Assembly (NCBI GenBank): GCA_018266795.1
Contig: JAFDZV010000036.1
Span: 152,971-216,970 of the forward strand
Reading direction: 5' to 3'
Origin: Bacteroidota bacterium
GTDB lineage: Bacteria; Bacteroidota; Ignavibacteria; OLB7
Length of the DNA stretch: 64,000 nucleotides
Part shown: positions 4,929-36,341 of the stretch, piece after piece
How positions within the stretch are numbered: position 1 is the stretch's first letter
Layout: every line of letters starts with the position of its first letter
Program-made: the position numbers and the translations under genes
Notes under the pieces: generated by a model
Seen by the model: the letters and a program-made list of their open reading frames with translations, nothing else
Told to the model about the DNA's origin: nothing
The model's database searches: none

Positions 4929-4937
4929 ACGAGGTTT

Positions 4938-5039
4938 TTAGTCCTTGGTTCTTAGTCCTTGGTTCTTGGTCAGTTGTCAGGGGTTGAAGAGAACCGTGCA
5001 ATCTCTCAACCACGGACTACCAACTACTTGACAACTGAC
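4938..5039. repeat. Heptanucleotide array with 11-bp inverted repeat before the ATPase gene
   Basis: Bases 4938-4979 read as six 7-mers: TTAGTCC, TTGGTTC, TTAGTCC, TTGGTTC, TTGGTCA, GTTGTCA. The last 11 bases (4969-4979, GTCAGTTGTCA) are a perfect inverted repeat of 5029-5039 (TGACAACTGAC). The bases before the right arm, read on the other strand, again contain GTTGGTA and GTCCGTG heptads. The right arm ends nine bases before the ATG at 5049, where a ribosome binding site would normally sit. Confidence 0.8.
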
Positions 5040-8034: not shown

Positions 8035-8403
8035 GGTGCGGCCGATACGGCGGCATCATCCGCGACCGCGATAGTTCGCTGATCGCCATTGGTGGAGTGC
8101 ATCATCTGCATCCGCTGGTAAATATCTCGTAGGAGAAATCCGTTGCGGAGATCCTGCGCATTGTCAAGACCGGTTCCTCGCGATGGATCGGTCAAACCTT
8201 TCCGAACCGGAGAACGTTTGCATGGTAGTCCGGATGTGGTGTGTTTACTGTCGGCCCGCTGAACGCGGATCGGTACACGATGCCCTTCAACACGGCGTCG
8301 ATGTGCGGGAGCGGTTCGCACGGTGCAGTGGTCGGTCTCCGGGCCGCCCGCAAGCGCGGCCGGACAGCTCCTCGGATCTCGGGAACCTTGAACGTGATTG
8401 GCT
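8035..8403. other. Gene-free stretch after the uptake locus
   Basis: No coding frame is convincing here. The only structure I see is a 7-bp inverted repeat, CCGGTTC at 8170-8176 with GAACCGG at 8204-8210, too weak and without a T run to call a terminator. The promoter of the small lipoprotein gene at 8404 should lie in this stretch. Confidence 0.4.
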
Positions 8404-25558: not shown

Positions 25559-25998
25559 TGTCCGTTGAGACTACGGTTGATATTGGCGGCATTCACGGTG
25601 CCAATATAACACCGCGAAGCCGGGGCAGGCGTTCGTGTTGTTCAAACTTTACCAGGCATGCAACGGCCGCTGAGGCCGTTCCCGGCGTTCGTTGCGGGCG
25701 CCATGCCGAACGGGTACACAATCATGTACTACCGTTTGGGGTGTATCGCGGATAAGTTGGCCTGCGACTCCCTCATCACCATGTATGCACGCGTTGGTCG
25801 GTTGTTGAATACCGGTCACGATCTGCATTGACGACAACCGACTGCTGCCCACCAGACACTGACCGGTGTACCATTCGGTTTGCCATGCTGCACGAGCAAT
25901 GCCACGGGCTGGGACATGTGGCATTGATGCTGCGGTATTTACCATAGATGGGGCAGACATCATACACATTCCACACAAACTTGTCACAGGGTACAATC
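25559..25998. other. Gene-free intergenic region with hairpin
   Basis: A 440-bp stretch between divergent genes. The only clear structure is the inverted repeat ATATTGGC (25580-25587) / GCCAATAT (25600-25607), 22 bp before the metallophosphoesterase start, which could be an operator or a leader hairpin. The rest has no convincing frame. Confidence 0.45.
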
Positions 25999-27528
25999 AT
26001 GAGAGAATTTCGGAAGCGCGTTGCTCCCGGACTCGCGCTCTGTACAGGTCTTGTTCTCGGCCTCACAGCCAGTTCGTATGCCCAGTCGATATTTCAATCG
26101 ACATACGGCGGCAAACTGGAAGACGCGGCCCGGGGAGGGACCATACGAACAAGCGATGGTGGCATTCTCACTGTTGGTGAATCGCGGAGCTTCAGCCCCG
26201 GCGGAGACTACGATGTCTACGTTGTGAAGACTGACGCCTGCGGCAACCTTCAGTGGTCAGCCACCTACGATATCGGCCGGGGAGGAGACGACTTCGGCCG
26301 AAAGGTGCGGGAGACCGTCGACGGCAACTTCGTCATCGTAGGCTCCACGAACAACAACGCCGGTTGCTCCAGTAAATATCCCGACATCTTCGTTCTGAAC
26401 ATCGACGGCAAAGGGAGCGTGAACTGGGCCAACACCTACGGCGGATCGTTCGCAGATGATGGTACGGATATTCAGCTCTTCAATGGCGGCAAAGAGTATG
26501 TCGTGTCGGGACGCTCGGCAAGCTTTGGCGCAGGCAGCTACGATGCATACCTCATGGACATCGACTTTGGCGGCAACGTCATCTGGGCGCGCGTCTATGG
26601 CGGCGGTGCATACGATGGTTTCAACGCACTCACGGTTGCGGCGAACGGGGACATCATCGCAACGGGAGAAACCTTCAGCTACAACTTCGGCGACGATCAG
26701 ATCTATCTGGTTCGCGTGGACGGCAAGGGCAATTTCAGCTCGCCTCTCGATTTCAGCTATCACTACGGTGGCTCGAAATCGAACGAGGCCGGCAACGACG
26801 TTGTCGAGATCAATCAGAAATTCATCGGCGTAGTTGGCTACACGGATGCCGGAGGGACACGGGATCCGTACGTGCTCAAGGTTTTCGCCGATGGCACCTG
26901 CTTCTGCGATAACACCTTCATCAACCCGCGTGACAATTCGGACGACGTGTTCAACGAGGTTGAGGCGACGCCGGACGGCGATCTGTATGTTGTTGGAACC
27001 GACAGGAACATCATCTTCGGTTTCGGCGGCACGGACATGATGCTCGTCCGGATCGATCAGAAATGCGGCTTTGCATGGGGACGCCTGTACGGAATGACGG
27101 AGAACGAGGAGGGACACTCGTTGCACGTCGAGTACGACCCGGCGAATCCATCGGCCGTGTACAGCTTCCTGCTTGCCGGTGTCACCACGAGCTGCTGTTT
27201 CGGCTCGGAGGATGTGTACCTGGTTGGTGCCGATGCGAACGGCGTATCGGGGTGCAACGAGAACGATCTCAAGTTGGACCAGCAGTCTCCGGGCTACTGC
27301 CCGCAGAAGGCTCCCACAGGCAATCCGCTGGTGTACAACTGGTGCGCGGTGAAGGCGGTACCGGTTTACTCCGATAGCTGGAAACCGCTTTGCCAGAGCT
27401 GCCAGGACGGCAACCTGATCCCGGGAAATCGCGAGCACCTGGGGGGCATTCTGCATCGGCAGGGTGTGCTTCAGACCACGGCGGTTCACGCCGCCGTACG
27501 TACGCGCGTGGCAGGAAGCCAGCGCTAG
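25999..27528 (+). CDS. Secreted repeat protein (propeller-like repeats)
   Basis: A 509-residue exported protein; signal peptide ends near residue 32 (SSYAQS). The body is a series of about 50-residue repeats with the pattern ..TYGG...D.....I....DGG....G.T.SFG.G..D.Y....D..GN (examples around residues 36, 128 and 193). Such repeats form beta-propeller-like extracellular folds in many FCB surface proteins. Several Cys-rich patches follow (SCCFGSEDV, CQSCQDG). The last 25 residues turn basic and lack a T9SS domain, so the 3' end may be frameshifted. Start ATG at 25999 fits the signal; upstream frame is not coding-like. Confidence 0.7.
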   Translation: MREFRKRVAPGLALCTGLVLGLTASSYAQSIFQSTYGGKLEDAARGGTIRTSDGGILTVGESRSFSPGGDYDVYVVKTDACGNLQWSATYDIGRGGDDFGRKVRETVDGNFVIVGSTNNNAGCSSKYPDIFVLNIDGKGSVNWANTYGGSFADDGTDIQLFNGGKEYVVSGRSASFGAGSYDAYLMDIDFGGNVIWARVYGGGAYDGFNALTVAANGDIIATGETFSYNFGDDQIYLVRVDGKGNFSSPLDFSYHYGGSKSNEAGNDVVEINQKFIGVVGYTDAGGTRDPYVLKVFADGTCFCDNTFINPRDNSDDVFNEVEATPDGDLYVVGTDRNIIFGFGGTDMMLVRIDQKCGFAWGRLYGMTENEEGHSLHVEYDPANPSAVYSFLLAGVTTSCCFGSEDVYLVGADANGVSGCNENDLKLDQQSPGYCPQKAPTGNPLVYNWCAVKAVPVYSDSWKPLCQSCQDGNLIPGNREHLGGILHRQGVLQTTAVHAAVRTRVAGSQR

Positions 27529-27665: not shown

Positions 27666-27703
27666 AGCGAGGCACCATTCATGCAATGGTGCCTCGCTTT
27701 TTT
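27666..27703 (+). terminator. Intrinsic terminator
   Basis: A 14-bp perfect stem AGCGAGGCACCATT (27666-27679) / AATGGTGCCTCGCT (27685-27698) with a 5-base loop, followed by six T. This is the strongest intrinsic terminator in the window and ends the transcript of the secreted repeat protein gene, including the repeat element before it. Confidence 0.92.
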
Positions 27704-27773
27704 CCTTGGTACTTTGGACGCTCGGCTGCGCCTCGCTGTGGGGCTTGGTACTTGGCGTAGTCTCGCACATCAA

Positions 27774-27822
27774 GTCCCAAGAACTGAGCTCCAAGAACGA
27801 AGCCCCAAGAACGAAGTCCCAC
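27774..27822. repeat. Heptanucleotide array, NNCCCAA type
   Basis: Seven consecutive 7-mers: GTCCCAA, GAACTGA, GCTCCAA, GAACGAA, GCCCCAA, GAACGAA, GTCCCAC. Same 7-base period as the array at 28407. Confidence 0.75.
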
Positions 27823-27880
27823 GTACCGGATCGCCTGCTGTCGGTTCCGTTCTATCTGTAGATGCGCTGTCTCAATGATC

Positions 27881-28033
27881 TCTCGAGCTCCCCGCCGGGA
27901 GCGGCCTGTGCTTTCATTGGAGACAGATAGGTCGCTCCTGGGCGGAGCTCATGAAAGGAGAGAGAGGCTGCATCTGCTACAGAGAGGTTGCATCTCGATT
28001 GCATGACGGCATTGGTGCGTCGGCGTGTATGAC
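27881..28033. repeat. 153-bp tandem block, copy 1
   Basis: A 153-bp block repeated at 28148-28300 with one substitution (G/A at the GTCGCT/ATCGCT position). Each copy holds a GCTCCC/GGGAGC hairpin, and together with the 12 bases before it a longer stem CTGTCTCAATGA/TCATTGGAGACAG can form. No credible coding frame; the open frames across it are by-products of the GC-rich sequence. Confidence 0.85.
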
Positions 28034-28147
28034 TACGTTGAACGGCTTCGGTGCGGTACTTGGTACTTGGGATGCTCGGCTGCGCCTCGCTGCAGGCCTT
28101 GGCAACGAACTCCGCCGGCTGTCATCGAACAATGCCGTCTCCATTGA

Positions 28148-28300
28148 TCTCGAGCTCCCCGCCGGGAGCGGCCTGTGCTTTCATTGGAGACAGATAGATC
28201 GCTCCTGGGCGGAGCTCATGAAAGGAGAGAGAGGCTGCATCTGCTACAGAGAGGTTGCATCTCGATTGCATGACGGCATTGGTGCGTCGGCGTGTATGAC
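28148..28300. repeat. 153-bp tandem block, copy 2
   Basis: Second copy, 152 of 153 bases identical to 27881-28033; the repeat period is 267 bp. The 114 bases after each copy are also related but more diverged, each holding a TTGGTACTT stretch and a GCTCGGCT(G/T)CGCCTCGC module. Confidence 0.85.
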
Positions 28301-28338
28301 GAGGTGGACGGCTGCGGCACGCCGCGGTTCTTGGTACT

Positions 28339-28361
28339 TTGGACGCTCGGCTTCGCCTCGC
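28339..28361. repeat. GC-rich hairpin module (one of four copies)
   Basis: Core GCTCGGCTTCGCCTCGC. Related modules occur at 27716-27738, 28070-28092 and 42996-43018. The copy at 42996 reads GCTCGCCTGCGGCTCGC, a paired change (G to C and C to G) that keeps the central stem base pair. Confidence 0.7.
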
Positions 28362-28406
28362 TGTAGGCCTTGGCAACGAACCCGCCGGCTGTCACCGAAC
28401 AACGAA

Positions 28407-28469
28407 GCCCCAAGCCCCAAGCGCCAAGCCCCAAGCGCCAAGACCCAAGCTCCAAGCCCTAAGAACGAA
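28407..28469. repeat. Heptanucleotide array directly before the COG0523 gene
   Basis: Nine 7-mers in phase: GCCCCAA, GCCCCAA, GCGCCAA, GCCCCAA, GCGCCAA, GACCCAA, GCTCCAA, GCCCTAA, GAACGAA. The array ends four bases before the ATG at 28474, so the usual ribosome binding site position is occupied by repeat. Confidence 0.88.
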
Positions 28470-28473
28470 TTCC

Positions 28474-29451
28474 ATGAACAGATACTCGTCGGGCGATCCC
28501 GTTCCGGTCACGATCATCACCGGTTATCTCGGTTCCGGCAAGACCACGCTGCTGAATGCGCTGCTGGCAGGCGGCCATGGGCTTCGCGTTGCGGTGATCC
28601 AGAACGAGTTCGGCGAGATCGCCGTGGACAACGATCTGATTCTGGGGCTGGAGGAGGAGATGATCACGCTCGCCAATGGCTGTGCCTGCTGCACGGCCCG
28701 CGGCGACATCATCGACGCGGTGGAGCAGTTGCTTGACGGTCCGGTACGGTTCGACAGGATTGCCATCGAGACTTCGGGCATTGCCACGCCGGGGCCCGTG
28801 GTGATGACGCTCGCAACGCACGGCGATGCCGGCGAACGCTTCGTGCTGGACGGCGTTGTTGCTCTTGCCGACGGCGCCAACATTGCGCGGGAGTTGGAGC
28901 ATGCACCGGAGGCGGCCGACCAGCTGGCCTATGCGGATCTGATCGTTCTCAACAAGCAGGATCTTGCCTCGCCGGATGTACTGCTTGCGGCCGAGAGGCT
29001 CATACGCGCGATCAACCCCTCCGCGCCGATCGAGCGAACGGCGTATGCGCGTATGGCACCGGAACTGGTGCTGGATGTTGGCGGGTTCGATCTCCGTCGC
29101 GTGGAGTCACTTCTGGGCGGCCTGTACAACGGGGAGCTTCCTGCCGTGCGGCACGAGCGCGGCATTCGCTCCGTGGCGATCCAAAGCGGGCTGGGGGTGA
29201 ACACGGCCCGGTTCGAGGAGTGGATGGAGATGCTGCTTCACACCCATCATGGTGATATCTATCGGGTCAAGGGGGTACTGAATGTGGCGGAGCATGCGCG
29301 ACGCTACGTGGTGCAGGCCGTGCACGGGCTCTGGAGCCATCAGTTCGGGAGCATGTGGGGCTTCTCGGCGCGCAACAGCCGCATCGTGGTGATAGGGCGC
29401 GAACTGGATGAGCGTTCGCTTCGCGACAGCTTCGGCGCCTGTCTGGAGTGA
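28474..29451 (+). CDS. COG0523 (CobW/YjiA-like) metal-chaperone GTPase
   Basis: A 325-residue G3E GTPase. Walker A GYLGSGKTTLLN (about residues 17-28), the CxCC metal-binding motif (GCACC, about residue 71), an ETSG element and the NKQD guanine-specificity motif are present, followed by a CobW C-terminal domain. Members insert or deliver Zn, Co or other metals to target enzymes. It precedes the paa genes by 123 bp; metal delivery to the diiron PaaA is an attractive but unproven idea. Confidence 0.9.
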   Translation: MNRYSSGDPVPVTIITGYLGSGKTTLLNALLAGGHGLRVAVIQNEFGEIAVDNDLILGLEEEMITLANGCACCTARGDIIDAVEQLLDGPVRFDRIAIETSGIATPGPVVMTLATHGDAGERFVLDGVVALADGANIARELEHAPEAADQLAYADLIVLNKQDLASPDVLLAAERLIRAINPSAPIERTAYARMAPELVLDVGGFDLRRVESLLGGLYNGELPAVRHERGIRSVAIQSGLGVNTARFEEWMEMLLHTHHGDIYRVKGVLNVAEHARRYVVQAVHGLWSHQFGSMWGFSARNSRIVVIGRELDERSLRDSFGACLE

Positions 29452-35279: not shown

Positions 35280-36341
35280 ATGACGATATCTGAACGACGT
35301 ACGCCCTCGATTCTTCTCTTCGCATTCCTTGCGCTTGCAATGATCACGGCGGAGTTCGCAATCGTTCACTCCTCTGCCTTCGCCTCCAGCCCGCGTCTTC
35401 TCTCGCTCGCGGTCACTGCCGATCTCGCACTGATCCTCCCAACGCTCTACTACCTTCTCGGGGTCAGACGCGCCGGATTGCCGCCGGTCACCATTGCGCC
35501 GGTCTTCCTTCTTGCCGCCGGTCTTGCCTCGTTCATGCTGCCGCCGGAAGGGCATGGCTGGCTGGAGATTCTGCACTACCTGACGATACCGATGGAGGGG
35601 ACGCTTCTCGCATACACGATAATCCGCATACGCCGTGCACGCCTGACATATCACGGGGGAGAGGATGACGACATGCTGAGTCTGCTTCGTCACGTCCTCG
35701 GGGCCGTCGCCGGTTCCGGCCGGGTTACGGAGTTGCTGGCGCATGAGTTCGGCATGTGGTACTACGCTCTGGGTTCCTGGCGCGTGCGCCGCTGGAGCAT
35801 CACACGCAACGGTGCGTTCTCCTATCATCGGCGGATTGCCTACGGTGCGGTGGTTGGGGCAATGGCCGCCGCGACGATCGTGGAAACCGTCGTGGTTCAT
35901 ATCGTGGTGGAGCCTCACAGCCGTGTGATTGCATGGGGCCTCACGCTCTCGAGTCTCTACCTGGTTGTGCTGCTGATTGCGGACTACAGGGCGTCGCTCC
36001 TCCGTCCCATTCTGCTGCGCGAGAATCATCTGCTGCTCCGATCGGGCATTCGGCGGAGCGTGTCGATCTCGTTGAGCGATATCGTGAACGTGGAGGCTGT
36101 TCGCGGCAGGCCCACACTTACCGAGAGAACCGATATGGTGAGCTTCGCACTGATGGGGCCGCCGCACCTGATACTGGAACTTGCGCGGCCGGTCGAGGTG
36201 AGCGGGTTCCTCGGCAGACGGACCCGGGCGGGCGCCGTCGGCATTGCGGTTGACAACGAGCACGAGTTCGCGGAGCGCCTGCGCGTGGCGATCGAGCAAC
36301 GGCGGGAGCGAACGCCGGCTTCAGAGGGTATTGATCCGTGA
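35280..36341 (+). CDS. Multi-spanning membrane protein with PH-like tail
   Basis: A 353-residue protein with about six hydrophobic segments in the first 240 residues, then a soluble tail (LRENHLLLRSGIRRSVSISLSDI) that looks like a bacterial PH-like domain. A strong Shine-Dalgarno sequence (AGGAGG) sits before the ATG at 35280, one of the few in the window. The stop codon lies inside repeat copy B, so the last residues (GIDP) are repeat-encoded. Confidence 0.65.
   Translation: MTISERRTPSILLFAFLALAMITAEFAIVHSSAFASSPRLLSLAVTADLALILPTLYYLLGVRRAGLPPVTIAPVFLLAAGLASFMLPPEGHGWLEILHYLTIPMEGTLLAYTIIRIRRARLTYHGGEDDDMLSLLRHVLGAVAGSGRVTELLAHEFGMWYYALGSWRVRRWSITRNGAFSYHRRIAYGAVVGAMAAATIVETVVVHIVVEPHSRVIAWGLTLSSLYLVVLLIADYRASLLRPILLRENHLLLRSGIRRSVSISLSDIVNVEAVRGRPTLTERTDMVSFALMGPPHLILELARPVEVSGFLGRRTRAGAVGIAVDNEHEFAERLRVAIEQRRERTPASEGIDP

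Follow-up and report, generated by a model that had tools for sequence, protein, structure and literature searches.

The two near-identical 153-bp blocks in the window (the whole stretch of DNA that was analysed, 64 kb in length) are copies of a dispersed, non-coding, palindromic repeat of the MITE kind, here called H, that was moved in trans and then duplicated locally; we give this reading a probability of about 0.7. H is a palindrome that occurs in many copies, mostly between genes, and it represents a new family within a known kind of miniature mobile repeat (no report of the H family was found in the available portions of the literature on Chlorobi/Kapabacteria repeats, ERIC and MITEs with 8-bp duplications). 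Since H has no gene, a transposase of another element would recognise its ends and move it in trans. Here it would have inserted between genes and then been duplicated locally within a composite of several repeats.

The block of copy A (27881-28033, plus strand; hairpins and 3' flank) and that of copy B (28148-28300, plus strand) were delimited with a repeat finder and the A/B alignment. They are identical at 152/153 bases with an offset of 267, and the sole difference is G at 27931 against A at 28198; the ungapped repeat finder stretches the match to 161 nt (157/161 identical). The 114 bases on the 3' side (28034-28147 and 28301-28414) are identical at 91/114 positions after alignment, which differs from 152/153 with a Fisher p of 1e-8. 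The sequence-only reading, which described two 153-bp blocks 267 bp apart with a one-base difference and a far stronger divergence in the 114 bp between and after them, was thus accurate on both points. The match to the copy at C66:85k, on a different contig, ends at the 3' edge of the copy A block (28033), so that the limit of near-identity (28033/28300) looks like a unit boundary.

The blocks lie in an intergenic gap of 0.95 kb. The gene upstream of it (25948-27528) is uncharacterised and without a Pfam match, and a terminator scan placed its strong intrinsic terminator at 27666-27698 (plus strand); the gene downstream of the repeats encodes a CobW-family GTPase (28474-29451, plus strand; PF02492 and PF07683). 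The order of repeats in the gap is T element, heptad array, H, T, H, T, heptad array. T (CTTGGTACTT..GCTCGGCTGCGCCTCGCTG, also written CTTGGTACTTGG..GCTCGGCTGCGCCTCGCTG; repeat family D3) is a second dispersed repeat, assigned by genome-wide DNA matches at 27699-27756 (plus strand), with more copies at 28053-28110 and 28324-28381. The heptad/14-mer array AAGCCCCAAGAACG occupies 27772-27821 (plus strand), and the second array 28405-28463; a further degenerate AAGNNCC heptad array lies at 4933-4971 of the window, and one heptad array stops 10 bp upstream of the cobW start codon. The word 'tandem' used earlier for the blocks is fair but incomplete: copy B has no left end motif, and the array is made up of several dispersed repeats, of which this block is one.

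H is an imperfect palindrome of approximately 135 bp, of which the near-identical block is one part; its limits, taken from copies elsewhere, are CTATCTGTAG (27852) and CTACAGAGAG (27986). Its inverted ends have the form CTATCTGTAG...CTACAGAKAG (the 10-bp internal inverted ends are clear), and the interior contains two inverted AGCTCC-N-GGAGCG hairpins. The core of copy A between the inverted end motifs spans 27852-27986 on the plus strand (CTATCTGTAG at 27852-27861, CTACAGAGAG at 27977-27986), and copy B, in which the left end motif is missing, was assigned by the A/B alignment to 28114-28258 on the plus strand, with the right motif CTACAGAGAG at 28244-28253. A pattern scan (genome coordinates converted) located the hairpin AGCTCCCCGCCGGGAGCG at 27886-27903 of copy A (plus strand; 28153-28170 in copy B) and the inverted hairpin AGCTCCGCCCAGGAGCG at 27933-27949 (minus strand; 28200-28216 in copy B). 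A covariance model built from 15 aligned H copies of the own genome (R1) gave 137 bits for copy A (27847-27991) and 99.9 bits for copy B.

The conserved palindrome proposed earlier is likewise supported. As for the nested stems, those named are present in copy A, but the outer left arm TCTCAATGA (27870-27878) is outside the near-identical block and differs in copy B, where it reads GTCTCCATTGA; on visual inspection this arm, too, pairs with the right arm, which is the same in both copies. When copy A with its ends was folded as single-stranded DNA, one long imperfect hairpin was obtained that beat 200/200 shuffles (z -3.2). Covariation was weak (0/18 pairs in alignment A1 and 2/40 in alignment A3), and the pairing test of the left spacer against the loop was marginal in the own genome (109/2000). 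In the congener described below, matched arms paired worse than mismatched ones; this result says nothing on structure because the copies were read in mixed orientation.

A first genome-wide pattern scan for H gave 0 matches, and a plain DNA search of the own genome gave 43 rows. With R1, 79 rows were obtained, corresponding to 53 distinct places, many rows having been counted on both strands since H is palindromic; the further copies that the sequence-only reading had proposed to look for are thus present. AGCTCC-N-GGAGCG hairpins numbered 76 in the own genome (control, 13), 340 in the congener (control, 9) and 17 in one family member (control, 4), and were at about the control level in the remaining genomes scanned; the count of the end motif with one mismatch was not above control (76 vs 68). 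By a simple codon-based gene call, 2/27 counted H copies lay within predicted genes, and the copies of the own genome occupy convergent, divergent and codirectional gaps. A search of a phage collection gave no match.

Copies A and B are mutual closest relatives (next best copy, 91%), and tandem or near-tandem copies are also found at C66, C26, C28 and C33; the suggestion that the block was recently copied is thereby supported. At C28 there is a plain tandem duplication with the linker included, the flanks seeming unrelated on one side and alike on the other, and at the C66 pair only the left flank stays similar. Given that A and B are sisters, the simplest account is a local duplication or a conversion confined to the H block, and their near-identity would accordingly reflect one of these recent events and not constraint on a gene product. 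Separately, locus L045 (C33:28800-31400) contains at positions 1098-1810 a 205-bp array of H-like units in which the linker is better conserved than the hairpin part; its neighbouring units show CTATCA/TGATAG and CCATCA/TGATGG, a paired double change.

A DNA-level search for H matched 0/40 genomes of relatives. R1 gave 36 rows in the one congener compared, which is a Chlorobiota MAG (isolate RYN_334); six other genomes gave no row. H is thus lineage-bound, though not unique, and it turned up in none of the genomes searched outside its genus. The congener family is parallel to H, with other sequence and the same layout: the inner ends of its elements read CCGGTTGTAG...CTACAACCGG, their hairpin plan is that of H, they fold as a hairpin of 40 pairs, and 2/66 counted copies lie within predicted genes (same gene call). 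A second covariance model, built from 16 congener copies (R2), finds the H family as R1 finds the congener family. In the 64-kb window R2 matched copy A (E 4e-5) and, weakly, copy B (E about 0.01), and nothing besides these two at E up to 0.05. When a collection of 84,980 species was searched with a pattern from the congener copies, the RYN_334 genome accounted for all 62 matching stretches; records near the own genome may be left out of this collection.

The congener copies have terminal inverted repeats (GGTAGTGACTCAG...CTGAGTCACTACC) and a total length of 285-312 bp (approximately 305 bp). Both ends were found in 34/56 copies (at most 2 mismatches), and 21/34 of these had target-site duplications with 7-8 of 8 bases matching (16 exact), against 11/1122 (1 exact) for mispaired congener flanks as control; in a stricter set, the duplications numbered 8/16 against 1/240 in the control. 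Long terminal inverted repeats and target-site duplications of 8 bp are thus features of the parallel family. An 8-bp target-site duplication implies a staggered cut by a DDE-type transposase, and the two features together are the signature of a MITE moved by such an enzyme. No autonomous transposon with these ends was present among three terminal-repeat pairs 2-4 kb apart.

Termini of the type GTAGYGWCKCAGKTTGMAT numbered 14 in the own genome and 69 in the congener, and there were none in three other family members (control, 0 throughout). In the own genome they mostly enclose another element of approximately 268 bp (GGTAGTGWCKCA; e.g., C28:169767 and C71:152835), whose terminal repeats are the same as those of the congener family and whose interior sequence differs from H; it has GCTCC/GGAGC hairpins, and exact 8-bp duplications at 3/14 loci (L220, L234 and L244). 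For H itself, MITE-type terminal inverted repeats (15-30 bp by the definition in the available text of PMC3733652) occur in isolated cases only. Within 260 nt on either side of 29 own H loci, termini with at most 2 mismatches were found only at L068 and L071, on one side each. L068 is the window copy, and its weak match to the family terminal repeat GGTAGTGTCGCA (27756-27767, plus strand; 2/12 mismatches), 96 bases 5' of the left motif, may be chance. The flanks of H fall into several subfamilies and its ends are fuzzy, for which reason target-site duplications are not demonstrable for H itself.

Based on the common layout, the reciprocal model matches, the presence of the termini elsewhere in the genome and the termini that abut an H hairpin at C3:127264 and C39:34582, we infer that H is a branch of the congener family. 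Since most H copies have no termini, H is best read as an older, decayed and locally amplified branch. As to the class, what was found for H is many small, non-coding copies, dispersed over 53 places with a core of approximately 135 bp.

A different mover is assumed if H is of the REPIN/BIME type, that is, an inverted pair of REP hairpins moved by a Y1 (HUH) transposase of the RAYT kind without target-site duplication, which we consider unlikely. The two inverted hairpins, GTAG in the ends and the tandem clusters resemble REPINs as described in the available part of PMC3116915, and the own genome has six Y1 transposase loci. However, R2 was silent at 10/10 Y1 loci (6 own, 3 congener and 1 further family locus), so that no RAYT gene was found flanked by the same repeat apart from one exception in shape only (family member G004, locus L129). 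In REPINs/BIMEs, the REP hairpin has a GTAG tetranucleotide at its foot; alignments A1 and A3 show GTAG approximately 25 nt away from the hairpin. In addition, HUH transposition does not fit 8-bp target-site duplications, and those of the congener are at odds with it.

The Y1 locus on C25 has AGCTCC..GGAGCG hairpins on both sides, but the upstream one is part of L220, a neighbouring element with terminal repeats whose 8-bp duplication is exact. The Y1 locus on C7 has CTACAGACAGG..TCTGTAG motifs on both sides, but short GTAG hairpins (GTAGTCGCGGAG..CTCCGCGAC, by eye) lie closer to the gene. A RAYT had been suggested as the mover of H by this C7 gene between CTATCTGTAG-like motifs; the candidate was demoted because the flanking sequence recurs at just two further sites, which are also on contig C7, because R2 matches none of the own and congener Y1 loci, and because of the congener target-site duplications. 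The C7 gene itself (C7:30748-31281; L049 and L097) is RAYT-like, encodes 178-187 aa and has the short GTAG hairpins on both sides; hairpins like these are inserted in the loop of the H copies at C44:103831 and C1:190127. Another Y1 gene (C9:73765-74085; L041) has GTAGGCGCACGTCTTCAGCGTGCGCC-type hairpins upstream and downstream (by eye), and at 8067-8258 of the window there is a weak Y1 transposase match (28.8 bits) with two in-frame TAG stops, probably a decayed gene.

The exceptional locus L129 (G004:C137 around 35586-35927), which surfaced in an intended control set, has a Y1 gene between tandem arrays of AAGCCCTGAAGGGGCG and CAGCCCAGGGCAACGCCCTGGG hairpins (locus positions 1039-1191 and 2126-2279) and looks like a REP/RAYT locus. 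R2 matched its arrays on both sides with 44-46 bits, which keeps the REPIN-like interpretation alive at lower odds. G004 has, however, no AGCTCC hairpin and no R1 match, so the arrays may resemble H in shape only. On a further reading, which we regard as quite improbable, the fold would have been inherited while the letters were replaced: two species of one genus, and in shape also a related genus with arrays flanking a Y1 transposase, would keep the multi-hairpin plan with nearly all of the sequence swapped, REPIN-like hairpin arrays being recognised by shape and packaged between DDE-type ends as a hybrid of two known kinds of miniature element.

Very improbable, in our estimation, is the idea that the H copies are transcribed small RNAs or ERIC-like mRNA-stability elements under selection and kept alike by concerted evolution. 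The stable folds would agree with it, as would the position of several copies in codirectional gaps, where read-through is possible, and there is a precedent in ERIC repeats, MITEs of similar size that affect mRNA stability when co-transcribed (available part of PMC2229807). Against it, no promoter-like site was found in a scan for the sigma-70 type, and there was no Rfam match at the gathering score (one chance-level match in the region, E 0.34). The congener copies show no orientation bias, the neighbours of the 39 assignable ones being codirectional, divergent and convergent in 20, 12 and 7 cases, which follows the 54, 32 and 18 for all gaps of at least 150 bp in the same congener loci (element-bearing gaps included). 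Nor did the one congener give any indication that the site is conserved: H is not in the gap before the congener cobW gene, although the same-site comparison failed there because the gene order differs. The proposal of a 'tandem small RNA' is therefore not upheld, as H occupies 53 places in gaps of all orientations, and conservation in relatives (0/40 at the DNA level) does not favour it either. A small-RNA gene would be marked by a promoter, a discrete locus, conservation or membership in a known family; none of these marks was found, and, judged from its sequence, H is most likely not a dedicated small-RNA gene. Finally, a purely local tandem duplication of junk sequence between genes, without any mobile origin, with which the sisterhood of A and B and the homology of the T segments downstream of both units would agree, is hardly credible, being disfavoured by the dispersed copies of H (51 other places) and by the homologous congener family with target-site duplications.

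If H is read as a MITE-type repeat, no new RNA gene is needed to account for the near-identical pair. For annotators of uncultured Chlorobiota genomes, this reading describes a repeat family at contig ends whose copies could be taken for small RNAs by mistake. Since the congener family has dozens of copies and exact 8-bp duplications, it offers a clean system in which to study how miniature elements retain a multi-hairpin shape during sequence turnover.

Among known systems, REPINs/BIMEs with their RAYTs share with H the inverted hairpin doublets, the tandem clusters and GTAG in the ends; they differ in that the GTAG of H stands apart from the hairpin, that H flanks none of the Y1 genes of the own genome or the congener, and that the congener family has target-site duplications. 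ERIC is defined by a 127-bp consensus, TA at the termini and enterobacterial hosts, and H, with a Chlorobiota host and other termini, was set apart from it without direct alignment. Table 1 of PMC2229807, in its available part, lists TA-type termini for ERIC, RUP and Correia, whereas the congener family has an 8-bp duplication. H and its relatives differ from ERIC and other MITEs also in having their own sequence, the congener element of approximately 305 bp having four hairpins and an internal second inverted pair and H itself being without clear ends. Nevertheless, ERIC/IRU and the other bacterial MITEs (Correia/NEMIS, RUP and Nezha) are, like H, imperfect palindromes that are short and non-coding and occur many times per genome, mostly between genes, and the terminal inverted repeats and target-site duplications of bacterial MITEs are likewise present in the congener family.
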